A DNA stretch of 31,143 nt from positions 3,984,229 to 4,015,371 of the forward strand of contig FN649733.1 of the NCBI GenBank assembly GCA_000310025.1, given 5' to 3'. A program made the position numbers and the translations under genes. Within the stretch, counting starts at the first letter, position 1; each line of letters opens with the position of its first letter. This document shows positions 3,209 through 31,062 of this stretch, piece by piece. The notes beneath the pieces are model-generated. The model was not told where the DNA came from. It searched no databases and saw only the letters and a list, made by a program, of their open reading frames with translations. Source of the DNA: Ectocarpus siliculosus. Lineage: Eukaryota; Sar; Phaeophyceae; Ectocarpales; Ectocarpaceae.

Positions 3209-4850
3209 GCTTCTGTCTGCTGTTGACGTATTTGGTTGTGTCTGGCAAGTGCAGTGGTCAGCTGGCTCTGCTCATGCATGTATGAGGCAGAGCTCTCCTC
3301 AGCTCCTCAGTTTGGTCGTGCGGCAAATTCGGAATGCCGCGCAAAGTAATACGAAACCTTTTCTCGCGCGCGCCAAAAGACGAGAGGGGGAGTGTACAGC
3401 AGCTCGTACAGCGTAGGAGAGTGGAGAATCCTCAAAAGCGTTGAAGTGTGCTCTCACGTTCTCACAAACACATGTGCCAATGGTATAGTCATTTGTTGTT
3501 GTGCTGTCACACCTATCGAGAAGAGCAGAATCTGCGACACACATATTTGGCGAAATCGCTACTGCTAGGAGACTTAGCATGCCACACTGACTCGGGTTGA
3601 TTCAGTTCATCCGGCTGCTCCTGCTGAGCCCAACTAAGTTTCTCGGAAGAACGCGAAGAAGAGAAAAAATAACTGCATGATGAGTTAATATGACACCTCA
3701 CGCAGCGTTCGATGGCTCATCATACATCATCCACGCTGCTGCTGCTGCTGCTGCTGTACCATACGGCATGTGGGTCTGTAGAGGGGATTGACACGAGTAC
3801 TATGACACCCGACGACCGGAGAACACGAATTGGAACACACTCTGCTTGTTGCACAACATACTACATGAAGCATTTATGATTATTTTCTGTGAGAATAAAA
3901 TCACCGACCAACTGGCAACAGCAGCCGCAGCCGCAACAGCAACTGCATCATCAGCGGCAGCACCAGAAAAGAAAGAAAGTTATCACCGCAGCATCTTATT
4001 TATGCACTATTGTATGGACGTCAACACAACATGTATGTATGTGTGGGGAAGCGCTGTCCGTCTCTCTCGCTCCAACCTATGTAGTAGAGACCGGCGCTAG
4101 CGCTCGGTGCCCGTTGGGATCGGTCTGCTGCACCGCCCTTTGGAAGGGGCGGCGACTTTTGGACAGGTGGGGACTTGCCATCTCCGCTCTCACCCATTTG
4201 CACCGTTGGCTCGGTGGGTTTGGCATCAAGGCCGGTGACACATGCTGCCCCACTGCTGCCATGCGCGCGCTACAGCGCTGCACAGCTGTGCATACTGTAA
4301 GTAGCTCTGTGTGCTGATGTTCGTATGCCATGCCTATGGGATCCCCCCACAAGGTTGCTACTCTGCTTACAACAAGAGAGGCAAGGCGGGGCGGGGAACA
4401 CACAGGTTCATTGTAACCACGGTTGAGCGGATAAACACTTGTCTCGAGCTTGTAATCCATTCCCTGCTCCGGCGGAACCAGAACGATTCCGATATCCGTG
4501 ATTGGCCGGCGCTATCGGGGCAATACCCCGACGCGCCGATATACGATACTGTATACCCCCACCGTTGAGAGCTGTGACACGTTACTTTTTTTTTTGAGGT
4601 TCCGTACACCGATTCAGGGCTGCATACAATACACGAAAAAAATGCGGGACCGCGTGTGCAGGGCACACCTCCCACACGACCACAACCAATCGAGGGACAC
4701 AGCAAGAGCGAGCGTCTGCGCCCCCTTCCCAACCCCCCCCTCCCGGCCTCCCCCGAGCACGAGTGCCGTGTACGTCAGTGCAACGAGCGCGTTGTAGCAC
4801 ACCTCTTCTGCTGCGCGACGGTTGCATTTTGGGAAAGTGGCAGCATCAGC
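3209..4850. other. Intergenic region between divergent genes
   Basis: This 1.6-kb stretch separates the minus-strand start at 3208 from the plus-strand kinase start at 4851, so it should hold both promoters. It contains a (GCT)7 tract at 3735-3756, a CAG/GCA-rich stretch around 3915-3965, a T-run at about 4585 and a C/T-rich stretch (4720-4755) shortly before the kinase ATG. No supported gene was found. I could not identify a convincing TATA box or other core promoter motif. Confidence 0.6.
3735..3756. repeat. (GCT)7 trinucleotide microsatellite
   Basis: Seven perfect GCT units plus one base. It lies in the intergenic region and is not in a supported coding frame. Confidence 0.9.
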
Positions 4851-7800
4851 ATGACTCGGTCAAGGTTTTTCTCTTCAACCGAGGAGAGCAGAAAGAGCGT
4901 GTTCGACGCTGCCCCTCCTGCTGCTGCTGCTGCTGCGGTTATCTCAGCGACCAGCAGGAGCAACAAGGGTACCAAGGTGGCCAGCAGCGGCAGCGGCAGC
5001 AACAGCGGCCCTGCGTCGCGGTGGCGGCGTCGCCTGCGTCGAAGCCACGCGCACGATTTCAACGAGACAGCAGCAGCAGCATCAGCATCAGCAGGAGGAG
5101 CAGCAGTTGTCCCCGAGAAGCCGGTGATCGCAGCAGCCCTCAGCCGAGACTCCCTCCTGGGGTCGGGTTGCCTCACAGAAGCCCCAAGCTCTCGCGGTAC
5201 GTCAGCGGAGACTCTGTCCACATGCAGTCCGGGCCTCGAGTCTATTGCAGATGGCGGTCTGGACGTGGACAGCTTCGATCTCGATGGCTCGGAGAGTTGC
5301 TGGCTCGAGGCGGAGCTTCCGCCCCTCCAGCTGCCAGCTGCTGCAGCTGGCGCAAATTCGCACCAGCAACGAAAAGAGCAGCAGCAGCAGCAGCAGCGGT
5401 ACGTCGGCCCGCTCGAGCTCCACGTGAAGGACTTCGAGTGCGGCGAGTGTGTTGGAAAGGGGTCCTACAGCAAGGTGTTTCTGGGCTCCCACGCGCCGAC
5501 TGGGACGGAATGGGCGCTCAAGGTCGTCTCCAAGCGGAAGACATTCGAGACAAGAGAGAATCTTATGCACTTGCGCGAGGAGCGGCACATCTCCACCAAG
5601 CTTCAAGGCAGTGATTTCCTCGTGCGAACGGCAGGGACGTTCCAAAACCCCAGGAGGTGTGTGTGTGTACGTACGCGTCCCTTAGTGCCGCGTAGTGCCA
5701 TTGCAACGGCTATGTAGCAGTGCACAGGCAGGTGGTCCTGTTGCGCAGAGATGGTGGTTCTACGTACGCGTTTAGATCGTTTCCGACAAGGCTGCTGTTG
5801 TTTGCCTCTCGTGGGATCTAATTTACTTTTGGGAAACATAACAGATGATTATCCGCCTCTTTTTGTCACCTTTATTTCTGGTCGGTACAGCAGTGTTTTC
5901 AGGGTGGTGCCCAAGCACCTGTAGCAATACCCCGGCATGGGCGTGTGATGATGCAGAGCAGAGCACGATGGGGCAACCCCGCTCTTACCAACAGCGCCTC
6001 TTGCTTGGCGAGCAGTTCGTCCGCTCCCTGTTATGTACGTAGACAACAAATGTTCAGCGCTGGCTTCGAATATGAATACTTTTGATCACGCCTTCTTTTG
6101 CGCTTGCCCAAATTTGCAACTTTGTGGACCCTGAATCTCGATGTACAGACTACAGACCCAATGATACCGGTAGTACTGCTCTACCACGGATGTTTGTGGT
6201 CGAAGAATTTTTTGCCGACGGTGCTCATGCAGGCAAAGCCTCGTAGTGTACCTACCACCTGACCGCACACCCGCCCTTCTGTCTCATAAAGCGGCGTCGC
6301 GAAACTTTTCAGTCCTTCGCACAACCAACGAGGTGCAGCAGCAGGATGACGAGGATTGTTTTTTGGTCTCGAGCTTGAAGTTTGGTCTGCTGACGGCAAC
6401 AACCACAACACCACAAAACCGCTTTTCGTCTCTACTACCCGCTCTACCCTCTGCCTACACATTTTGTTCTTACACATTTTTAATGTGAAGACAACAACAA
6501 CACATTCATGTTCCAGCTGTCTCTTTCAATCAACATCCAGAACAGCAGAACAGTCTTTTTTTAGAAATTCACATACACGAGAGAAAGACTGCCCGTTCCA
6601 GATACCACATCAGTCTTGGGATGAGCATGATATCGTTCAACAGAGAAGAATGTCTTTGGTGTGTTGCTGTTGACCATTTGACGAGCGTAGTTGCTCGTGT
6701 GTCATGAGCTGTACGTACCTACGTACCTACCTCTTCGTGCGTGTGCTTGCTTCCAACCTTCGTTGATACATCCAAGATTGGCGATGGTTTGCAAAGATGG
6801 TTGCATTTTCGCGCATAAAAAGACGATCTTTCTCCCAAGAGTTCAAGCGCGTCATGCAGGTTGTTGGTTTCTTCGGCAACAACGTGTCTTCAACAGCAAA
6901 AGTTGTTGGAATTTGGAAGCAACTCATACCCATACATGAAAGCTCGTGTATGAATGTGCAGGTATAGCAACGGGCCTGTGTTTTTGTTGGGGGGGGGTTG
7001 CGGCAGCACCGTCGCGATACGGTTTTGGAAGTTCGGGGTTTGCCTGGATGTACCAGACAGCGGTGTTGGCGTTGTAGCAACTTGTCGAAGCGACCCTCTC
7101 CCGGGGGGGCAGCATGTTGATGATGCATGGCTCGTATCTTGGCAAAGGTGAAGAGAGAGATGACTCATTGTTCTGTTGCCACGGACAAAGAATATCAATT
7201 TCGAAATACAGAGTCGTTGACGCTCGCATCAGCGCTCGTTCTGCTCACCCATTCTTGTACAGATGGTATCATTTTGTGGATGTCGCTGGCACCGACCTTC
7301 TCGTTTGTATGTGTGTGAATCCACAAATAGACAAGATATGCGCCTTGCATGCGTTCCTGCCTAGTTCGGTTCAAAGTCAAGTGTACAAGACGTACGTATG
7401 CATACAAGGCGTCGTTTTCGTTTCCCCGACATGCGCGCTCAAGCACTCGTGTGTATCATCTTGTACCTAAGCTGTGTCGCCCGAAAAGGTAAGCCTCTTG
7501 TGTTCAGTCGTCTCCTCCCCTGCCTGCTACCCTTCCTATCCCCAAACAGAGACACAGCAACTGCTGTATTCCCAACCAAAACGTGCTAGAAATACGATAC
7601 CAGACCATCTGTTGCGCTTCTCAGCAGTCTTCTGCCATCCCTTTCTCTCTTTCTCTCTTGTAGTATAGCGTTCCTGCACACTGACCGCTACTATTATACT
7701 GTATCGTTCTCGTCTCTTCCTCCCCTGGTGTTCTCAGTGTGGTGTTTGCGATGGAGTATCTGCCAGGAGGCGACCTGTATCAGCGATTGTCGGACAAGGG

Positions 7801-9298
7801 CACGCTGTCGCTCAGGGAGACCGTGGCATGGACGGCGCAAGCGGTGCTAGCCATCGAAGACCTGCACGCGAAAAACATCGTACACCGAGACGTTAAGCCA
7901 GGTTGGTCGACAAAGAGAAGCTAACCTGTGCAAGAATTGGGGCACCGCGCAAACATGCATACTTCCTTATTGGCGGAAGGGGGGAGGGTTGACTGTCGTA
8001 CACTATTATTGCGGAGGTTGATGCCCAAAATACAACAAGTTTTTAACAGAGACACAGCAGCAGCAATGTGGCCATGGAATATGTTGCACTAGCCCTATAT
8101 TTACCCTATCCCCCCCTTACCCCCCCCCTCCCCCCACTCTTAACAGAGAACTTCCTCATGGGCAAGTCCGGCACGCTTAAGCTCACCGACTTCGGCTTCG
8201 CGCGCGAGCTCGCACCAGACGAGCGGCTGTACTCGCAGTTCGGGACCCCGGAATACGTTGCGGCAGAGGTGCGTGGGTTGTTCCATGAAAAACTAAACTG
8301 GCTTCGTGTCTGCTGTTGATTCGGGACATTCGCTCGATCAAGATCAACATCGGGCATAGTAACAGCTTGCTTGCAGTAGTGATAGTGGATGAAACAAAGT
8401 GCGTCCTTGGAGGTGGAAGGGTGTGCTGTAGAGAACGCTGAGAAACGTTCCATTGAGTTGGTTCTCTTTTGCGCAGTCCTAAAAGAGGTGCTCTCCCTTT
8501 CGCCGTCCATCATCAAAAACCAACCTGCGTACGGTCTGGCAGGTGCTGAGCGGCGGCGGCCACGGCATGCCCGTCGACCTGTGGGCCCTGGGCGTGCTCA
8601 TCTACGAGCTACTGGTTGGGCAGACGCCGTTCAAGTCGCCGAGCGTCGAGGAGATGTACGAGCGCATTGCGGCCGGCGACTACGCCTTCCCGAAGCCCCC
8701 CGCGAGTCCGGCCTGCGCTGCCGCAGAAGGTTCCTCCTCCAACTCCTCCTTGAAGTTGTGTTTGTCATCGAAGGCGGCGGGCAAGTCTGGTTCGTCGTCG
8801 TCGAACGTCCACAAGGGTGGGGTGCAGAAGCAGTCGTTTTCGTTGAAGAAGTCGGACTCTTGTCTGTCGGCGACGGCGAGCAAGAAGGGCGGCCTGGCGA
8901 CGGCGGTAGGCCCCAACGGGGCCGATCACACGCGACAACAAGCGGAACCGGCGAAGAGTAAACAGGCGCAACGGCAGGAGCAGGGCACGGCCGACAGCAA
9001 TAACACCTCTGGTGGTGGGGCGCAGGACCCCGCCGCCCAGTCCCTCGTCAAGGCTCTCCTCTGCCTCGACCCAAGCCGCCGGCCCAGCCTCCCCGAGGTT
9101 AAGCGCCACCCGTTCTTCGCCGGGGTCGACTTCGACGGCCTCCGGGCGGCGGTGCGGGCCCAGGCGGATCGGGAAGAGGAAGAGGCCGTCGTTGCAGCGG
9201 CCATCGAGGGCGGCGACGTCTGGGTCCGCGGCCAGCCGGTCGTCTGCCAGTCCGACGAGATGAACGATAACTACGGCGGTGTCTTCGTCGGGTTTTGA
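4851..9298 (+). CDS. AGC-type serine/threonine protein kinase
   Basis: Exons are 4851-5656, 7738-7901, 8147-8268 and 8543-9298. All junctions are GT..AG with matching phase and together give 615 codons plus TGA. The start is the first in-frame ATG of the open frame. Residues 1-190 are low complexity (Ala, Ser, Gly, a polyQ tract near the end). The kinase domain starts near 194 (DFECGECVGKGSYSKVF). It has a glycine loop at 202-207, catalytic Lys224 (ALK), helix-C Glu243, HRDVKPEN with Asp320 and Asn325, and DFG Asp338. The activation segment is SQFGTPEYVAAE, where Ser353 occupies the activation-loop phosphosite position of PKA; subdomain VIII reads AAE instead of APE. After DLWALGVLIYELLVGQTPF, a Ser/Lys/Gln-rich insert (about 419-527) interrupts the C-lobe before DPSRRPSLPEVKRHPFF (Arg544). 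The protein ends in FVGF, like the terminal FxxF of PKA. It should phosphorylate Ser/Thr in the cytosol or nucleus; substrate unknown. The AGC assignment rests on GTPEY, HPFF and the tail. Confidence 0.9.
5657..7737 (+). other. Kinase intron 1
   Basis: This 2.08-kb intron starts at a GTGTGTGTGTGT donor and ends at TTCTCAG. It splits an AG|T serine codon, so that NPRS joins VVFAMEYLPGGDL, exactly at the kinase hinge region. It contains alternating GTAC/CTAC steps around 6710-6730 and a G7 run near 6990, but I see no gene inside it. Confidence 0.8.
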
Positions 9299-16375: not shown

Positions 16376-19300
16376 CTAATCAGACTTCGCCTCCTCCCCA
16401 ATATTTCTGGCTCGTGGGACGAAGGACTCACTTTCGAGGGGCATCCCTTGGTCAGGTTCTTGCTTGACTGGCGCTTGCACCGACGGGACGTCACCGGGTT
16501 GGCGCGGGCGCTTTTTGGTCCTTGGGGGTATCCTGTCAGGGGCGTTCCTAGCACGCTTGCCTTGGGTCTTGGCATAGACAGCGTTTATGTTTATCATCCC
16601 GGGTCTAGCGTGCTGGCTACAGAATTCCGGCCGGGTTGAACCTTCCGCGCAGTAGTACGGCCTCTTGAAGCAGGTGGGGTGGGCGCAGCTTCGGCATCGC
16701 ACGTTGACCATTCCGTCTTCTGCGTGCCGGCTGCAGAATGCTGGTGTTTTTGTTCCCTGAGACACAAATTGCCGAAGCAGCTGGAACGATGTGAGTGACG
16801 TGTGCCGGGTGAGGCGAGGGGGGGGGGCGTACTCTTATGTTTTGCATGCCTTAGCGGTTAGACCATTGACCACGCGTCCTCGAGAGGACGGAGCACTGTT
16901 CCCACAGGACCGATCACCGATGGCCAATCGTCCCTTCCTACTTTGCCAAAGGTGGCTCAAAAATGTCTTCCCTAGTCTGTCTATCCCAACGATATCCCTT
17001 CCCGCCTTCTCAAACCACTTCCTACTCCCCAGTACAGCTACCGTCCTCTCCTCTCTATTCCATGCCTCAAACATCTCCCTGTACGTCCCTTGTATTTTTC
17101 CCAGCTCAGTCATGTACACTTCCCTCTCCTCTTCGTACCACGGACATCCCGCGACTACATGAACACGGTCTTCGCATTCGAAGCCGCAATCACATTTGAA
17201 CTTGTCGTCTTCGTCGTCTACCGTCCTATGTCTTCGTCGACGTTCTCGAAGGCCTATGTCCCCGGTCCTGAATTTGACCTTCAGCTTTGTCCCTGCATCC
17301 ATTGGTCCATGTAGGTAATCCTTGAACCCCATTCCTTCTTTCAACATTCCGTACGCTTCTAGACCCTCCTTATCCTTGGTTTATTTCCTTAGATTCTGTT
17401 CTTCTCTCTCGGCACAAGCAGCAGATATCTTCTCCTTGAACCCCTGTAGACCCTCCGTTTCCAGCGTGTCATCTTCGTCGATGTCTAACCCCTTCCATAT
17501 GTCCTCTACAACCTTGACCCATTCCGTGGGTTGTCTACCCCTCTTTTTGTTTTCCCACTTCGCCTCCCATACTATTTTCGGCAACCTCTCCTCTCCCATC
17601 CCGCACATGCGATACTGCCATGTCAGCTTCCTTGCGTCTCTTCCCGACCGTAGGGATTGGATCCCCAATTCTGCCCTTACGGCTGCATTACTTGTGCGCT
17701 TGGAGCATCCTAGGATGATTTTCGCTGTTTTCATCTGCGCCGCCTCGAGTTCTTTCACTACCTTCTTATTTCCTTCCCATACTTCTCCGGCGTTCTCTAG
17801 CGGCGGTACGATTACGCTCTTCAAAACCGTCAACGTGATGCGTGTATCGAGGTGCCGGTTTGCGAGTATTGGGTGTAGCTTCCCTGCTCGTGCTTTGCCC
17901 TTTTCTGCTACCTTGGACATGTGTGCATTCCACGAGCAGTCGTTTGCGATCTCTACTCCGAGGTATGTGTACTGGTCCACTACTGCAACCTCCTCCATCC
18001 CCCACTTCCATCTATGTTCTACTGGTTCCTCCCTGCCCTCGTTGCATACCATGACGGCACTCTTCTTAACGTTGGCAGACAATCTCCACTTATCAGTAAA
18101 CTTCTTCGCCGCGTCAATTTGTAGTTGCAGTCCCTCAGGGGTGTCCGACATACCAACAAAATCATCCGCAAACAGCATTCCTGACACCGAAGTTTCCGTG
18201 TCCCCTACTTTTACTCCCTTCCGGACTGCCTCTACGACTTCCAACAGATCGTTGATGAGCACCTGGAACAATGTTGGGGACAGCGTGCAACCTTGTGGGA
18301 CCTTCTGCTCAATGTCGAAGAACTTAGACAGTTCTCCGTCTAGCATGACCGCGCTTTTCGCACACTCTGTCATCTTCTTCAGCACCCTCCACATTTTCCC
18401 CTTGATCCCGTACTTGGACAATTGTTTCCACAGCCCATTTCTCCATACGGTATCGTATGCCTTTTTCACGTCCAGGAAGAAGCAGTACGTCGGCTTTCCC
18501 GCCCTCTTTCTACCTTGGATGATTCTCCCTACCGTGAATGCGTGGTCTACGCACCCCCTCTTCTGTCGGAAACCTGCCTGGCCCTCACTAATGCTACGTT
18601 CCTTCTCCAACACTCCCATTTTCCTATCGTTCAGCAACTTACAAAACACTTTTCCTACTGTGTTCAACAGTGTGATACCCCTGTAGTTTCCTAGGTCAGT
18701 CTTGTCTCCTTTCTTAAACAAGTTCACAACCTTCCCTCCATCAACTTGGCGCATACTGGTTTTTCCACACCCAGTTGTACAGCAGTACCATCAACTGGAT
18801 CATCCCCTTCCCCCCAAACTTCATGAACTCGTTGACTATCCCATCCGCCCCTGCTGCTTTGTGGCACTGCAACTTGTTCACGCACGCCTCAACCTCGTCC
18901 ACAGTGAACTCCTTTTCTAGTTCTACGTTCCCAACGTCTGCCTTCGATGTCTCTTCTTCTTTCTGGGCCCATGCGTCCACCTCCTTCTTAAACACTGGGT
19001 CAAAACTTCATTCTCCGAAGGCACTCCAAGTCTCTTGTAGTGTCCTGCTAGAACTTCCCTTTTTCCCTTCCGACTGCTGACTAGTCCACCTTTCACACCT
19101 CGCAAAGTTGCTACCCCTGTATCCCCCCCTTGCGCGGTCTTTTTTACCATCCCACTAATCCCTTCTCACATCTGCTTGGCGTTCCCCTCCAGGCCTCCGT
19201 TGGCCTTCTGCACTACTTCGTCCCAAATTCACTTTTTCTTCTTTTTCACTAGTCCCTTCACCTGTTTCCTCTTGGCCCTGTACTTTTCCCAACTCTCCTC

Positions 19301-21786
19301 AGACCCCTCACTCAGGTACTGCTTGAAGACTTCTTTACGTTCCCCTATTTCTTCTTTCAGCTCGTCATCCCACCACTTAGCCGATACCCCACATCGTACC
19401 ACCTTCTTTCCCACTACTCTCTCTGCCGTTATGCTCACTATGGACTCCCATCCTTCAATCACCCTGTCCCCTGCTGCTTGTACGTCTACCTGTCCGTCTT
19501 CGACGCTTCTCAGCAGTTTCCTGAAGGGTTCTACACTACCAGCCAGTCGTTTCTGGAATTCATCCAGTGTCCCCTCGTCTCCCAAACGCTCTACTTTCCA
19601 CCGGAAAACTTTCCTCTGTTTCTTACTCTCCGTCTTTCTAGATCGGTCGATGTTTGCCCATACGAGGAAATGGTCGATCGAACCTATATGTATCGCACTT
19701 ACGTGCAGCTCTGGGATCTGTGTGCTCCCCCTATCTACCAGGATGTAGTCGAGGATCGTATTCATTGCAAACTGCCCTTTGCCTGGTGAACTCCGGCTTA
19801 TCGCATTCCCTCCTACCGTTCAACACCATCAGCTCGTTGCTTCCCAAGAATTCAAGCATCCTCACTCCGTTCTCATTCACTTTGTCTTCTCCGTGCTGCC
19901 CGATCGCCTGCCCTCTACTGGAAGCTTTCCCTACTCTGGAGTTGAAATCACCCACCATGACAACTTCTCCCTTCCTACTGAACCTCTGGACATCTTCCCC
20001 AATTTGTCCGAAGTTCTCCTGCGCCTTGCTCGCGACTTTCTTCGACGACGGTGGGACGTATACGTTCCCTAGAAACAAATCTTTCTCACCCCGCTCCCCA
20101 GGTATCTTAAGCCATAGGCTTTCCTCGAACTCCGTTTTCACCACTACTTCCACCACGTCAAACAAGTGAGGCGAGGGGGGGGTCTATGTTCTATCGTTGC
20201 CGCTGCTGCCGTATCCTTGGCACACCTTAGTGCAGCACTGGTGTGGAATTTGCCTCGGAGTGGAAGCTAAACAATTCACGTGTATGGTAATATTTAGTAG
20301 CAAAGCGGAAGTACACAACAGCAGGGAGGTGGCGCGTTTCGCAGGACGATTATATATTTGATTGAATTAAGGGGTGGGAATTTCGGACAAGATTTGGGTA
20401 TTTTTTTTTCCGGATAGCGCAGACTGAAACCCCAACTTGCAATTGGGGAATATCTCTTCGTTCCGAGGCACGCCGCACTGCAACGGCACTAAATAGAGTA
20501 GACTGTACCACTGCTTGCTGGCTGCTCGTCAGGCCTACTTAAGTTGAAAGCTTTGCAGGGACCGCTGTCTGCAAACGGTACGGTGTCGGGGATATGCATC
20601 ATTGCTTGATACTTGTGTGCCACAGTACCAGTAGCATCATAAGTCACGCATTCCCCTCTGTAGTCGATTGCAGCAACACAACAAGTCGTCTCTGTGTGAT
20701 GCGTAGGCACAAATACACTTTCATGTGTTCTACATGTGTAGCCTAGGGATGACAGGTTGAGAGTTGAGGACACTTGTCCTAGATACACAGCAGTGGGTAG
20801 AAGCTTGCGTGCAGATTTCGAGCAGGGAGACTCTGAATACGTCAGAGAGATTGTCGGAATAGTTGCGGCGAAACTTTCGTGTTTGTCCGAACAGACCCCG
20901 CGAGACCAATACAGCGAGTAGATCTCGGGAGAACCCTGCTTTGACGGTTCGTGTGATTTTGTTTTTTGTTTTCGAGATGAGACACAAGCGTGCTATCGCC
21001 CCTTGTGCCCACTCCACTTATGCACCATCAAAACGTGACGCGGGAGTCAGTCAGTAATCAAACATATTTCTTTGCTTCTTCGTTCCGAGGCACACATCAA
21101 GTTGCACCCGCACTCGAAGTGTAACCTCTCTCTGTGTAGGCTGCTGTACAACCACAGCTGCTGTACAACCACAGCCTACGAAGCGACCGCAGCACACAGC
21201 ACACACCCGCTGCTGCAGAGACGCTTATCCCCCAGATACGGTACCACGGAGGCGTCGTGCACTATTTACTCACTTGGGGGCCGAAAGATGCGCGGGTTGT
21301 GCAAAGTGGATGTTCGCATTTCCTGCTGCGAACGTTGATCATCCCCTCCTTCGCATGCTCCTGGCAGAACTCTGCCCTCTTGGAGCCGCCCACGCCAAAG
21401 TTCGGCTGTTTGTTGCATCCGAGATGGCTGCACACCCTGTCGAGAACGTTACTCATTCCCTCCTTCGCGTGCACGGTGCAGTATTCCGCCTTCTTGGTGC
21501 CTGTGCAGCCGAAGGATGCCAGCTTGTCGCACTCGTTGTTGACACACCTCCTGCTGATGACGTTCACCATGCCCCTCTTCGAGTGTTTCACGCAGAAAAT
21601 CGCGGTCTTGGTGCCTTGAAGGCCGTAAGACGGGGTTTTCGAACAAGCCAGGTGGCCACACCTCCTGTTGAGAACGTCTACCATCCCGGGGTGCCTATGC
21701 TTGGCGCAGTACTCCGGTTTTTTGGACCGCGCCGTGCCGTATGTGGGCATTGTGGTACACTGATGCTGTGCGCATTCTCTACGCAT
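16376..21786 (-). CDS. EsV-1-7 repeat protein, six repeats
   Basis: Two exons, 21786-21274 and 16756-16376, encode 297 residues. Exon 1 holds four complete repeats with the family spacing C-X4-C-X16-C-X2-H-X12: C5/C10/C27/H30, C43/C48/C65/H68, C81/C86/C103/H106 and C119/C124/C141/H144. The fifth starts at C157/C162 and is cut after SFGPQ by a GTGAGT donor. Exon 2 begins after TGTGTCTCAG with GTKTPAFC, so splicing restores exactly 16 residues between C162 and C179, followed by H182. The sixth is C195/C200/C217/H220. The tail (233-297) is basic and Pro-rich, with a nuclear-localisation-like PPRTKKRPR (248-256) and a SUMO-like VKQE (268-271). The family is named after a protein of the brown-algal virus EsV-1 and includes the Ectocarpus developmental regulator IMMEDIATE UPRIGHT; biochemical role unknown, metal binding plausible. 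The first repeat begins right after the ATG, which supports this start. The 4.5-kb intron hosts a LINE. Confidence 0.88.
16809..16825. repeat. LINE target-site duplication, 3' side
   Basis: GTGAGGCGAGGGGGGGG, identical to 20166-20182. The flanking bases differ outside these limits (GCCGG here, AACAA there), which fixes the ends. Two further G's follow here and may belong to the element or the tract. Confidence 0.85.
16835..17347 (-). pseudogene. LINE C-terminal region with zinc-knuckle-like motif
   Basis: This is in the same frame as the reverse transcriptase, just beyond its TAA stop. Cys and His residues are spaced as C-x-C-(x)8-H-(x)4-C (KCDCGFECEDRVHVVAGC), the arrangement found after the RT in many LINEs. 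The rest is Arg/Glu-rich. It reaches almost to the 3' end of the element. Confidence 0.75.
17381..18754 (-). pseudogene. LINE reverse transcriptase core
   Basis: A 457-residue frame containing the RT fingers and palm: NLFKKGDKTDLGNYRGITLL (11-30), SEGQAGFRQKRGCVDHAF (56-73), motif A FFLDVKKAYDTVW (Asp95), motif B VPQGCTLSP (152-160), catalytic FADD (195-198), and a thumb region after YLGVEI. The catalytic aspartates are intact. An upstream frameshift at about 18755 separates it from VWKNQYAP, and a TAA at 17383-17381 separates it from the in-frame C-terminal part. The frame is therefore a well-preserved part of a dead element. Codon use is unlike that of a low-complexity host intron. Confidence 0.9.
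19731..20165 (-). pseudogene. LINE endonuclease domain, N-terminally truncated
   Basis: The frame begins at the insertion boundary without a proper start. It retains the YVPP strand and the GDFN motif (VMVGDFNSRV) of the exonuclease-endonuclease-phosphatase fold that nicks target DNA. The sequence then shifts frame near 19780, where the domain should continue as NTILDYILVDRG in the neighbouring frame (19765-19229). Without its first catalytic strands it cannot be an active nuclease. Confidence 0.85.
20166..20182. repeat. LINE target-site duplication, 5' side
   Basis: GTGAGGCGAGGGGGGGG, the partner of 16809-16825. It directly abuts the truncated endonuclease frame. Confidence 0.85.
21136..21179. 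repeat. 17-bp tandem duplication inside short inverted arms
   Basis: GCTGCTGTACAACCACA occurs twice in tandem (21140-21156 and 21157-21173), and the block is bracketed by GTAGGCT and AGCCTAC. It lies in the EsV-1-7 intron about 95 bp inside the donor. Confidence 0.75.
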
Positions 21787-24549: not shown

Positions 24550-27500
24550 TTATCCTTGTGCCGCTTCCTCCTCGTCCTCCTGTTCATCATCTTCCTCCTC
24601 GCTGTCTACCCATTCACCGTCTCCCCAGTCGCCGTCCCCCCAGTCATCCTCATCAAACTCGCCGCCGCCCAACACGAAATCGCCTTCGAAATCGTCGTCG
24701 TCCTCCGCACCTTCCGGCACGTTCACGATCGCCAGACCCCCGGCGACCTCAAACGTCTCAAGAACAGGTGCCGCTGCCTCTTTGCTAACGCTGTCGGCGT
24801 CACCGCCAGCAGCGCTCTTATCCGGCGACTGCTTCTTTTTCTGCCGAGACGAAGGCTCAACCGTAGCACCAGCAACAGCCGGTGCGCTGTCCGGAGATCC
24901 CCGTTCCCCTCGCAAGAACGCCTCGGCTTCCGCCATGATTTCGTCAGCGTCTTCAGCGTCGACGAAAACATCGCCGTCGTCCTCGGGACCCTCCGGCTGT
25001 CGGGGGGAGGTGGAGAACGGCGCTACTCCGTACGCCTCCGCTCCTCCCCGTGCTGCTGCTGCTGCCGCCGCCCCCCCCCCTTCCAAAAACGCCTTCGCTT
25101 CCGCCGCGATATCGTCGTCGATATCACCATCGTCGATATCATCAACGCCGTCTTGTTCCAGCGTTCCCGCCGACGGTTTCGACTTACCGATCGGGTCTCC
25201 CAAAAATCCCCTGTCGATCGAAGAAGAAGCCGCTCTCTTCCGTGGCAGCGGCGGCGGCAGGGGCTCAGCAGAATCATCTGCGACGACGACGCCTCCCCCC
25301 CCGGTAGCGGTTGCCTCCTCCCGCGTGTCACCACGCGCCCCCGCCGCTGCTACCGCCGCCCCTGCCTTGGCCGCTGTCACCGCTGCCCTCGCCGCCGATG
25401 CTACCGGGGGTTCCGTAGTAGAGACGGACCAGAACCGCCCCCCCTGGACCTCACAGTCGTCGAACGGCAGCCCGAGGCTCTTAGCGAACTTGCCCATGAC
25501 AAACTTCACGTCCGGGGTTGCCATGTTCACCACGATCCCCGGCCTTCCCGCTCGCCCGCACCTTTTCGTTTTAGTTGTTTTTTTGTGTGGGTGGAGGGGT
25601 GTCGGTCAGCCAAAGGCATGAAACGGGAAGGGGATTGTTGAGTCGGAAGTGTGCATAGCTGAAGGGGTTGGTTACTGAATTCGAGCCGAATCCAGTCTAG
25701 AAAAATCGGATTGGTTTTACGTAATTAGCACCAAAAGCGAAACACAGTGTCGAGGCTTTTCGTGGGGGGAGACGCTGCAGCTATTCTCTTAGGGTAGAGA
25801 TCCACAACACCCTGCCATCGCCGCGACCCAGAAGTGGAAAGGTGTATCACCGACGAGACGTTCTGACACGTCACAATTCTCGTTTACAAGCAACCAAACG
25901 GAAGAGAGAAAAACAAACACACCCTTTGAGGAAGGGAGATACGCTATCTATCTATCTACCGTGCCGGGCAGAGTTACAGCAGATGGGATGGGGGCACACA
26001 CGGTACATGCCTTCCTTCTCTTAAGAGACAGGCACGTGCTCTTCGCGTACCAACGCGTTTTTGTGGGTACAATAAGGCGCATACGCTGGCGCCGGCCGCG
26101 GAAGCATTGCCTCCTCCCAACAAAGCCGCAGCTCAAACAGTTACCGTACCTTCCCGCACGATGCACGTAGTGGTCAGCGTCGGTGGGGAGATCGTAGTTG
26201 ACAACGTGCGTGAGGTGGGCCACGTCCAGGCCTCTTGCTGCCATCTCCGTGGTCACCACCATGGCGATGCGTTTATCCTAACATACAAGACAAGGTAACA
26301 GCAGTAGCAGCACCGGACAGGAGTAGTTGGCAGAACCAAGTCAAGGAAGAGAAAGCAAACCGGCAAAATAAACACCAAGTGCGAGTTGGCCTAGACATCT
26401 CCTCACGAACAATATTTCTACAGCATGTGAGCGCTCGATGTGTTAAGCAAGGCGGCTCGTGCGTTCGCATACGCTTGGGGTATTGTATTAATTTCGTTTG
26501 CTAGATTGCCAGTTTGAATCGCATGCTCCACGTACAGTACAGTACAGTACAGTATCCCGAGATTCAACGCTGCACATGACGGGATGGTCGGGTAGCAAAC
26601 GGCACAAGCACCGTTTGGGGGGGTGAACTGAACGAGCATACTAGAGACAACATCTCTTGTCTTGTCATGGCAGAACAAACAAGGGTTTATATGTACATGT
26701 AGAGAGAAAAAACATGTCAACACACCTGTAACCGCCTCATTATCTCTGCACGGTCGTCCTTGGAGCTCTCTCCGGACAAAGGTGCCGCGATAATGCCCAC
26801 TGTCTCCAAGCGCTCCGTCAGCCAGTTCACCTGATCCATCGAAATACAACATGAAACACGACATGAAACATGGTCGACAATGTTGTAGTCGTCATCGTCG
26901 TTATCGTTGTCGTTGTTGTCGTGTTACGCAAGTTGATGCTGTTGCTGCTTTCGACTTGGCAAGCATCACACATACCTGGACACACCAAACGCTGCATGCG
27001 GGACCAATGTGCAACACGCGGCGCTTGCTCTTTCAGCAACAAACGAAACAGTTGAGACGTCATACGCCTCCGAGAGTGGGCCGAGAGAGGTGAGACCGCT
27101 TCATCCGCCACAAAAGGCCACCCAAGGAGGTTGTATCAACAAGGCAGGTGAATTTCCGTTAAGACAAAAAAGTGCCGTTGATTGAGGCTTCCCTTGCAAT
27201 GAAAGCCCCGCATTTGCTGCACCCGAAAAGTATCCTGTCGTGTCATGTGTTTCGGACAAGGATCACCACACGCCGGCACACTACGCTTACAACCAAAAAT
27301 GTGAAGAAGGGAGCACACACTGCGTTGGCAGGCCTTCTGTATAGATGAAGACGAAGCCCTTAGAGGATACCTACGATGACATATAATCGGTGTAAGGACA
27401 GACGCTACGTACAGCAGTAGATACATACGTGAACTGCAATACACAGTGGCTACGTCATCTGCACCTGTTCGGTTACAAATTCGCCAAACTAACACCACGG

Positions 27501-28653
27501 CGTCAAGCCAACAGATAAGAAATGGGTGGTTGGCTCCGCGATACGCCTACAATACACAACTACAGTACACACCTGTATGGGGTCGTTGACGAAGATCATC
27601 ACGCTCTCCGGGAAGGGCTGCGTGTTCAACAAGCGCCGTAGCGTGTCGAACTTTTTCACCTGAGTATCAAACAACAGCAACCACGACAGCACCAACAAGA
27701 GATTGCACAGGGAGGGCCGGGCGGGGCAGCACAAACAAAGCAGACTTCATCCAAACCGAAAGAATGAAAAACAACGGTTGTAGCGATGGCAACATCAACA
27801 ACACACAACTGAACGACACTAAAACACAGACACTCGCACGGATTGCCAGCAGCAACGTTCCTTATGGGCTCTCGGGCAACTGATGTACAACTACACGCTA
27901 GATATTCAAAGTCGGCCATGGCACCTTCGTTCGTGATACATGACCGCAAAAGTTCATTCGCGGGCGCGGCTGTATCGAGCGAAATGAGTACATGGTTGTT
28001 CCATTCTTGAGGATTCCATATGAAGAAAGGCCTGCGGCTATGGCAACAAATAATAGTCGTGGAACACCTTTCTGCCGTTGCGGCAAGAGCGAGGTGTATT
28101 CAGTAGGGTAGGTCTAGCCATTCTCAAGTGCCAAAACAAACCGCATCACCAATGGCACCACAAGGACAACACACGAGCAGCACCAACAAGGGCAGCCTAC
28201 ACCACCGTTCTAAGAGCACACGGGCTCGCTGATCGCCACAAAGTAAACAGAAGAGTCCACGCTACATATACATGGTACAGTAGAAGACTTCTACTCCTCC
28301 CCCCCTTCCACAAGCGGGCTTCTTGCTGTAGCTGCTTCGCTGTAGCTTCCTTCTCTCACACCGCCGTCAACACACCTTGGGCATGGTGACGATCGTGTGG
28401 CGGATGTTGGAGGGCAGACCGCCCCGCCGCTGACCGCTCCCCACACCCAAATCACCTCCGCCTACGAACAGCGGCTCCTCCCTCATGTAACGCTCAGAGG
28501 CTGCGGAGACTACCGGCGAACGGCCGGTTGCCGACGCGAACACCGCCTGCCGCCTCCCTGAAAGGCCAACGAGAGAGAGACAAAGAGCAGTTGAGAGAGC
28601 CGTTGAGAAAGAGCCGCTGTTGCTGTTGTCGGTGCCGCCGCCTTTGCTGCTGA

Positions 28654-28696
<43 letters not shown>

Positions 28697-30327
28697 ATTG
28701 CTAGGTCTCCGTACAAAAAAACGTCAAGGTCAAATCGTCATTGTCCTCACTTGGTTCCCCGTACGTTTACACTCGGGATTGGTCAGGTGGAAAGCGAAGA
28801 CTATGCTATAACGCTTCAACACGAACTGGTCATCAACATTGTTACGGTCCTGCCGTGCACATTGTCCCCATATTTGCCTTGTAGACGGCCGGCTACAAGC
28901 CGTTTTATCCGAGCCTCAACTGCGGTTTCACGTATGTGCCGAGTTCAACCTTCAACCAGACGCCTTCTTTCGCAAAACATAGCGGTGGTGGCGGCGACAA
29001 GAACGGCGACAAGAACGGCGACAAGCACAAAACCCATCACCTCTGGGAGTTGCATCCATGATGGCGTCTATCTCTTGGTCGTACGGGGGCCTGAGCAGCG
29101 CGTCCACCTCGTCCAAGACGACCGTTCTGACCATGCCCAGCTTCATCCTCCGGCGGTCGAACACCAACTCGCACAGGCGACCGGGGGTGGCGATGACGAT
29201 CTGCAAGGCAAGGCAAGGCGAGGCAAGGCAAGGCCAACAACAAATCAACAAATGAAAGGAAGAAAGCGATGGATGAGTTGGTGGCTACACAAGGACAGCG
29301 CGACAAATGGTCACCTGGCGCAAACGAAAAACAAAAGAACAGCAGAGGTTTCAAGCATGTCATTATTATTGGATCCAATCCATGTAGTAAAAATAGAAAA
29401 TACTGATGGATCCAACGTGTGAGCCAAGGGGGACAAGATTTGTACAAAGTTGATTGGCCAATCATGACATGACGACACTGACCGGAAACGCCGAACGCGA
29501 CAAGAGTCAGTCACAAAACAGTATGATAGCAGCAGCGACGACAACAACTACTATACAACTGCAACAAGATGATACAATGCCAAAAAAGAACGACAGCAAA
29601 AACAAAGCCGTGTGTCGAGCGTTCACAGATTAAATACCAGATTGCGCAAGCTTCCTCCTTCTGTCACCTCCGGCGGAGTGAATGCCAGACAAGAAAACAA
29701 ACACCTTCCGTTCGTCCATCACACTTCTTCTCCGATCGATCATTCCATCATTCATTAACCCTTGCAGCTGAACCCTTGCCGTAGCAGCGAAAGCTGTAAG
29801 AAAAGTAGCCCCGATCTGAAAAAAAAAAGGCAAGTATTGCCGTTCAGCCATTCACGGCTCTCCATTCTCACCTGCGGCTTGACCTTCTTGAACCTCTCCA
29901 CCTGCCTCAGGGCGTTGGCACCCCCGATGACCATGCTGCTACGGAGGCCGGTCCCTTGGATAAGCTTCTCGCACACGGAGAAGATTTGGCTAGCCAGTTC
30001 TCTGCCTGGGGCCACCACGACCGCCTGTGGGCACCACAGCAAAGGCACCACAAAACAAAACTTAGGTGCTGCATGCTGTAGAGATATAATACGCGGTGAC
30101 TACACTAGTTACGGGCGTCGTACAGGTTTCGGGGGGCAGAAAAGACCGAGAGGGGCGAAGAGGAGACGGCGAACTGGATGTGGATGGATTTCGCTTCGCG
30201 ACGGAAGAAGTTGCCGTTACCGTTGCCATTGCCACCACGACAGGACCAACGACGACAAAACTACCGGATAGCAACACCAGAAAGAGCAATGCCAACCACA
30301 ACAACAACAACAGCAAACACCCACACC

Positions 30328-30359
<32 letters not shown>

Positions 30360-30695
30360 AAACAACAAAAAACAAACAGCGAGCGAGGGCTTCCACGAAC
30401 GAACCTGCAGGGCGTTGCTGTCGGGATCGGTGGCCGCGATAAGCGGCAGCAGGTACGCCAGGGTCTTTCCCGAACCCGTGTGGGCGTGGATGATCACGTC
30501 CCGGTCTTCGGACAAGAGCCCGCGGATAGCGGAAACCTGGACATCCGTCGGGGAATCGATTCCCAGCTTCTTGATGTTCTTGAGAACGGTCCGGTCCTGG
30601 ATGCCCAGGTCTCGGAAGGAGAACGAGGCCTGCTGCTCGAGGGTCTCCATGTCGGCGATGTTGATCGCCGTGTAGGTCGGCTTCCTCTCCACCGC
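24550..30695 (-). CDS. DEAD-box ATP-dependent RNA helicase with acidic C-terminal tail
   Basis: Eight exons with GT..AG borders and consistent phases: 30695-30405, 30024-29872, 29200-29041, 28557-28376, 27659-27573, 26830-26726, 26277-26150 and 25561-24550 (705 codons plus stop). Motifs in order (numbered from 30695): Q motif with Gln53, Walker A AHTGSGKT 71-78, Ia PGREL 103-107, Ib TPGR 153-156, motif II DEVD 178-181, SAT 210-212, IV VMIFVND, V TTEMAARGLDV, VI HRAGR 365-369. The last exon continues CGRAGRPGIVVNMATPDVKF, so the acidic frame starting at 25533 is not a separate gene. The tail (about 420-705) is Ala/Asp/Glu-rich, with two AEA(K/E)AFL(E/R)G modules (about 520 and 577) and a W-G-D-G stretch (Trp676, 681 and 686). 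The protein should unwind or remodel RNA using ATP; target and compartment unknown. Motif II has Val for Ala. The coding start is uncertain: ATG at 30650-30648 is in frame, or an upstream exon exists. Confidence 0.92.
25944..25961. repeat. (CTAT)4 microsatellite
   Basis: Short CTAT repeat in helicase intron 7. Confidence 0.8.
26532..26554. repeat. (GTACA)n pentanucleotide microsatellite
   Basis: Four full GTACA units plus a partial unit in helicase intron 6. Confidence 0.85.
28655..28693. repeat. (GCT)13 trinucleotide microsatellite in helicase intron
   Basis: About thirteen uninterrupted GCT units in helicase intron 3, roughly 100 bp upstream of the exon 4 acceptor (28557); in the sense strand it reads AGC. 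Length variation is expected. Confidence 0.9.
28992..29028. repeat. 12-bp minisatellite, three copies
   Basis: The unit CGGCGACAAGAA occurs three times with the last copy imperfect. It lies 12 bp inside the donor of helicase intron 3. Confidence 0.85.
29203..29235. repeat. AAGGC pentamer array forming an acceptor pyrimidine tract
   Basis: Six AAGGC-like units (one GAGGC variant). In the sense strand of the helicase the array reads CCTTG repeats and runs straight into the TTGCAG acceptor of exon 3 (exon starts at 29200), so the microsatellite itself serves as the polypyrimidine tract. Confidence 0.85.
30318..30378. repeat. CAC/AAC-rich microsatellite
   Basis: CAC units followed by AAC units and A-rich interruptions, in helicase intron 1 just after its donor (30404). 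Confidence 0.85.
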
Positions 30696-31062
30696 CTGTC
30701 GAGCGGTCAACAGAGGAACAAAACCCGTGCAAGTACAACACAGACACACTTTGAGAATAATGCTAATATGGTGTGGTTTAGCTGATAAGCCGGTCAGCGC
30801 GGTCGATGCTACAAAGTAACGCACACGCAGCGATTTTGAGTTATTTCCCCAGTTGAAGCAGCCCTGTTTCAGCTTCTACAGCCAGAGCAAGGGCGTGAAA
30901 CCTCAATCCAAAACCGGCGATAAACATTAACATGCAAACAATGTTCCTTCTCTCGTCTTTCGGCGCCGGGCCGGTTAGCCCCGCTTCTTCAAACTATTAC
31001 ACCATACTGGATATCGCCACCGTCCCCGTGAAGATTTGACCGGTCGAAATCGGCGATGCCTT
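30696..31062 (-). other. 5' region of the helicase gene
   Basis: Holds the acceptor-like GCTCGACAG preceding exon 1 and possibly a missing first exon. A minus-strand ATG at 30933-30931 opens a short frame (MLMFIAGFGLRFHALALAVE) that could be a targeting presequence, but I found no convincing donor for it. Only 367 bp remain before the LINE-associated G run, so the promoter may include or abut the LINE copy. Confidence 0.4.

Follow-up and report, generated by a model that had tools for sequence, protein, structure and literature searches.

IMMEDIATE UPRIGHT (IMM) and EsV-1 gene 7 are members of the EsV-1-7 family. A role in early sporophyte development has been reported for IMM (PMC7457493, PMC12993054). 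One report counts 90 EsV-1-7 proteins in Ectocarpus species 7 and hypothesises that the family consists of zinc-finger transcription factors (PMC12629598), and the EsV-1-7 domain is described elsewhere as a possible zinc finger (PMC12477816). According to the latter source, at least one genic transposable element (TE) insertion is present in 81% of Ectocarpus genes and the median autosomal intron length is 524 bp. Here we analysed a window of 31,143 nucleotides of Ectocarpus siliculosus DNA, in which an initial annotation had proposed that two frames (21262-21786 and 16376-16765) are parts of one six-repeat EsV-1-7 gene whose intron holds a LINE.

On the minus strand of the window, predicted exon 1 (21274..21786, 513 nt) carries the start codon at 21786, repeats 1–4 and repeat 5 up to its 15th residue, and its frame breaks off mid-repeat at a GTGAGT donor. 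In exon 2 (16376..16756, minus strand, 381 nt including the stop codon), the frame resumes within the repeat, directly behind a CTCAG acceptor at 16757, and provides the rest of repeat 5, repeat 6 and a basic C-terminal tail. The predicted intron between them (16757..21273, minus strand) spans 4,517 nt, and the GTGAGT donor and CTCAG acceptor were seen at 21273 and 16757, both in phase 0 as proposed. Exon 1 is supported by the six-repeat translation, the match to PF19114 and an N-terminus, M-x-[RK]-E-C, that is also found in the paralogous loci L008 and L027; exon 2 is supported by its translation, PF19114 and a tail partly conserved in a further paralogue, L033. Translation of the joined frame gave a 297-aa protein with repeats starting at residues 5, 43, 81, 119, 157, and 195. 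The spacing C-X4-C-X16-C-X2-H-X12 was exact in all six repeats of 38 residues each, in repeat 5 only after exon joining, and all 24 Cys/His positions as well as both exon frames were intact. The joined protein matched the EsV_1_7_cys family (PF19114) with 290.6 bits in six stretches, the curated Pfam cut-off being 25 bits. The joined frame, the exact repeats and the architecture of L033 support the proposal that the two fragments are most likely two exons of one six-repeat EsV-1-7 gene with a LINE in its intron, the splicing of these 4.5 kb being predicted from sequence.

The intron contains a 5'-truncated, broken LINE in sense orientation (16826..20165, minus strand, ~3.34 kb), which ends 3' in GAGTACG(C)n; the C run makes its 3' breakpoint ambiguous, and its 5' breakpoint can be placed to within about 3 nt. 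It is flanked by an exact direct repeat of 17 nt, the target-site duplication, with an upstream copy at 20166..20182 and a downstream copy at 16809..16825 (both unstranded). The starts of these copies are 3,357 nt apart, in agreement with the 3.3 kb initially given for the retroelement. A reverse-transcriptase frame (17381..18790, minus strand, 469 codons stop to stop) matched RVT_1 with E = 6.1e-32. A partial endonuclease frame (19731..20183, minus strand), which opens in the upstream target copy, matched Exo_endo_phos_2 with E = 2e-4; this match was weak (21.6 bits, under the Pfam cut-off of 27.4), with the domain truncated in this copy, and the LINE coding region as a whole is split over several frames. 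All five LINE copies examined elsewhere (L018–L022) extended upstream past the start of the window copy, indicating that the latter is 5'-truncated. The presence of a LINE in the intron was thus confirmed by the RVT_1 match, the exact 17-bp duplication and the 5' truncation.

Both in the window (16818-16827) and at L011–L016, the LINE copies were observed to terminate in C-rich runs that differ in length, rather than in A. LINEs insert by target-primed reverse transcription, their established mechanism. When six 3' ends including that of the window were compared, each showed GAGTACG, or a sequence close to it, and then a C-rich run, the flank beyond being N at L015. On the gene strand, the upstream target copy has 8 C and the LINE 3' end has 10 C; since the target is also a C run here, tail and target could have paired at insertion. 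Overall, the LINE was 97-98% identical to the copies compared, which were the best matches (40 of 2,684 and 40 of 136 candidates scored); the 40 places scored among the 2,684 comprised the window itself and 39 others. Its 3' 561 nt were 97.1-98.0% identical to five other copies and carried 7 private substitutions versus 3-6 in those copies, while its 5' 461 nt were 97.2-97.4% identical to five others and carried 5 private substitutions versus 1-4, with an additional 2 indel columns private to the window copy among 461 columns. Because the paralogues of the gene are about half identical at best, these values indicate that the LINE insertion was recent relative to the paralogues.

A second, older insert that was absent from the initial annotation was found in the same intron. 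This MITE-like dispersed repeat (20584..21238, unstranded, about 655 nt, ends approximate) has short imperfect terminal inverted repeats and was detected at 11 other near-full places with 74-84% identity (query 30-50 to 637-688), and in shorter pieces at further places (40 of 64 candidates scored). Comparison of its ends revealed no convincing target duplication around it. A 17-bp direct repeat at 20455-20471 and 21077-21093 was considered as its target-site duplication and dropped, because the dispersed element itself spans the upstream copy. A short dispersed repeat at 20348..20454 (unstranded) gave 11 matches of about 70-105 nt each at 76-83% identity (query 812-918). The intron measures 1,160 nt without the LINE and, by subtraction, about 505 nt without both inserts. 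Given the published TE-in-gene figures for Ectocarpus (PMC12477816), a LINE within an intron is to be expected, and the content of this intron is ordinary for such a genome.

These features would be explained by stepwise enlargement. A starting intron of ~0.5 kb would have interrupted the C-X16-C linker of repeat 5 and would have been enlarged first by the old MITE-like insertion; later, a 5'-truncated LINE would have landed at the C-run, leaving the 17-bp duplication. The spliceosome would remove the whole 4.5 kb, the fifth repeat would be restored and the 297-aa protein would be made, whereas failed splicing would end the frame three codons into the intron, giving 174 aa with four full repeats and no tail. 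We consider it very probable that this full explanation, namely one two-exon gene with a stepwise-enlarged intron whose splicing restores repeat 5, is correct. The gene could instead be a recent pseudogene, in which the LINE or the 4.5-kb intron blocks splicing, or polyadenylation within the LINE leaves the 174-aa product. Between 22600 and 15800, the gene strand contains a single AATAAA, which is located within the LINE (17385-17380), a stop codon follows three codons past the donor in unspliced exon 1 (VSK, then stop), family members with broken repeats or stops, such as L026, L028, L045, and L051, are present in the genome, and signs of selection against intronic TEs are reported (PMC12477816). 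However, AATAAA was not enriched in the window (14 versus 10.7 expected), and none of the 24 Cys/His positions nor either exon frame is damaged. Moreover, the LINE has differences of its own relative to the five copies compared at each end (7 in 561 columns; 5 in 461 plus 2 indel columns), indicating that some time has elapsed without visible exon damage, and intronic TEs, described as ubiquitous in Ectocarpus, are reported to affect expression minimally (PMC12477816). A pseudogene is therefore quite improbable.

The splice junction was examined by pairing the three GT dinucleotides that follow the second Cys of repeat 5 and precede the in-frame stop with the six AG dinucleotides located no more than 120 nt before the third Cys. 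Only one of these 18 pairs, 21273/16756, restored X16. Against an HMM of repeats from other loci, repeat 5 scored 58.6 bits when joined versus 17.4 bits when unspliced, the other five repeats scoring 43.6-63.3 bits, so that the claimed restoration of C-X16-C in repeat five holds. The scoring profile was built from 139 distinct repeats of L003-L010 and L024-L039, with L027 left out and the window excluded; it includes the other repeats of L029. X16 is kept by 49 splits, just one of which is GT...AG; this split scored 73.8 with the repeat profile, tied third behind a best split of 74.8. An alternative acceptor with an open, in-frame continuation (TTCCAG before 16780) would add eight residues to the linker (X24). 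Two isoforms could then arise if the acceptors at 16756 and 16780 were both used, and the fifth repeat, although weakened in the longer one, would still score 46.0 bits, which leaves room for such an isoform. On the other hand, the 16780 acceptor breaks the X16 spacing that all six repeats keep with the 16756 acceptor, and the whole-protein score was 300.4 bits with the former versus 309.7 bits with the latter (three other joins, 292.4-296.1 bits). Use of both acceptors is accordingly very improbable, and the single junction 21273/16756 remains our preferred model.

The strongest test of the one-gene reading is provided by L033 (G000:C15:2955500-2959000), a paralogous open frame predicted to be a gene. 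When the exon 2 tail was searched alone, L033 was the one other place with E < 0.001 (E = 3.3e-4; all seven candidates scored). Six repeats and the same C-terminal tail are present there in one uninterrupted open frame, without the junction intron and without the LINE. L033 and the joined product are colinear over residues 5-282, with 111 of 283 positions identical (39%) and no gap at the junction; the basic KKRPRQP stretch and the VKQE motif in the tail of the window gene are partly shared by L033, which has KRPR and PVKEE at the corresponding positions; the last 15 tail residues are unmatched. We take these tail motifs to suggest a nuclear, possibly SUMO-modified protein. As the counterparts of both halves form a single frame in L033, the halves are parts of the same protein architecture; the predicted intron was either gained in the window gene or lost in L033. 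The initial annotation had named orthologues with separate halves as evidence that would count against its reading; the opposite was seen in L033, which is a paralogue and not an orthologue and is the sole relative sharing the tail. That two independent genes or fragments lie 4.5 kb apart on one strand by chance is next to inconceivable: each frame does match PF19114 alone (206.2 and 87.4 bits), but the half-repeats are complementary, the splice signals fit, no in-frame ATG was found ahead of the first Cys of exon 2, and L033 carries the same parts in one frame.

In the genome searched, an assembly of 492 contigs and 189.5 Mb, 162 matches to EsV-1-7 relatives were obtained, two of which are the exons of the window gene itself. 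All 150 scored repeat matches were over the cut-off; these were the best 150 elsewhere of 880 candidates, and none lay on the contig of the window (C8). Several paralogues have long arrays in one frame, with 16 repeats in L009 and 12 in L004. The EsV-1-7 arrays of L026, L028, L045, and L051 contain broken repeats or in-frame stops and are apparently decaying.

Interruption of the C-X16-C linker by an intron is uncommon, but the window gene is not alone in this: two other paralogues are predicted to have such an intron. In L027, which has five repeats, a phase-0 linker intron of 1,749 nt, whose removal restores X16, lies in the first; three of its 49 splits are GT-AG, and the best of these ties for the top score. 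In L029, which has twelve repeats, a phase-1 linker intron of 668 nt, whose removal restores X16, lies in the ninth. In the window gene, L027 and L029, the second Cys precedes the intron by 9.0, 7.0 and 9.33 codons, respectively (phases 0, 0 and 1). The three positions lie within 7 nt of one another in repeat register, although the cases kept come from a search for broken X16 linkers. At L029 (G000:C256:36000-40000, minus strand), an 11-nt direct repeat, TGTTGCAGGTA, was observed at both junctions of the 668-nt intron, and it looks as if this intron came with a target duplication; no direct repeat was visible at the splice junctions of the window gene or L027. Repeated gain of introns at nearly the same place in the linker is conceivable but rather doubtful. 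It is favoured by the lack of a linker intron in L033, the closest relative in architecture, and by the direct repeat at L029, while the absence of such a repeat at the other two loci and the restricted reach of the search speak against it; if true, it would make the linker a tolerated insertion site that splits tandem arrays into exons.

Linker introns were also scanned for in 57 paralogue stretches (L003-L010, L024-L072) together with the window, a sample that leaves out 13 listed clusters and the unlisted ones; the scans reach introns in the X16 linker or between flanking complete repeats only. The first scan gave 33 GT-AG joins versus 10-57 for six control dinucleotide pairs. GT-AG joins numbered 6 in the second scan versus a mean of 2.6 (31 of 255 other pairs reached 6), and 9 in the third versus a mean of 4.0 (22 of 255 reached 9). 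The scans performed no better than the controls because degenerate tandem repeats yield many false joins, and the case for the junction consequently depends on evidence from the locus itself and from L033. L027 was missed by the scans and was found in a listing of half-repeats; the window gene, L027 and L029 were each checked split by split. The other GT-AG joins from the scans were dropped on reading.

With three Cys and one His offered per repeat, the protein is most likely a putative nuclear multi-repeat zinc-binding regulator, matching the published hypothesis for the family. No PDB sequence match for the joined protein was found up to E = 1, and a single-sequence AlphaFold2 model of exon 1 alone was poor (mean pLDDT 39.2). 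An IMG/VR scan for viral origin with the joined protein, a method that reaches close relatives only, found nothing. In the window, no tRNA was found and no Rfam family reached its gathering score. The gene is flanked by a protein kinase gene (4578-9298, plus strand) and a DEAD-box helicase gene (25948-30875, minus strand), in both of which the domain is spread over several open frames, as in intron-bearing genes.

The significance of this locus lies in a corrected gene model and a further family member, not in a new mechanism or system. The model concerns a developmentally relevant family (cf. IMMEDIATE UPRIGHT) and covers a gene that might otherwise be annotated as a pair of truncated genes; its intron illustrates clearly how successive insertions can lengthen an initially ordinary-sized intron and leave the exons undamaged. 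The LINE resembles the RTE/RTE-X LINEs of Ectocarpus (PMC12477816) in its reverse transcriptase, its many copies, its intronic site and its 5' truncation, which is frequent among them; they also carry an endonuclease, for which the weak Exo_endo_phos_2 match is a candidate here. The gene itself is predicted to be an additional member of the known EsV-1-7 family with an uncommon exon split: it shares the tandem C-X4-C-X16-C-X2-H repeats of the brown-algal family, but unlike several paralogues, it carries an intron inside a repeat, and this intron holds two transposable elements.
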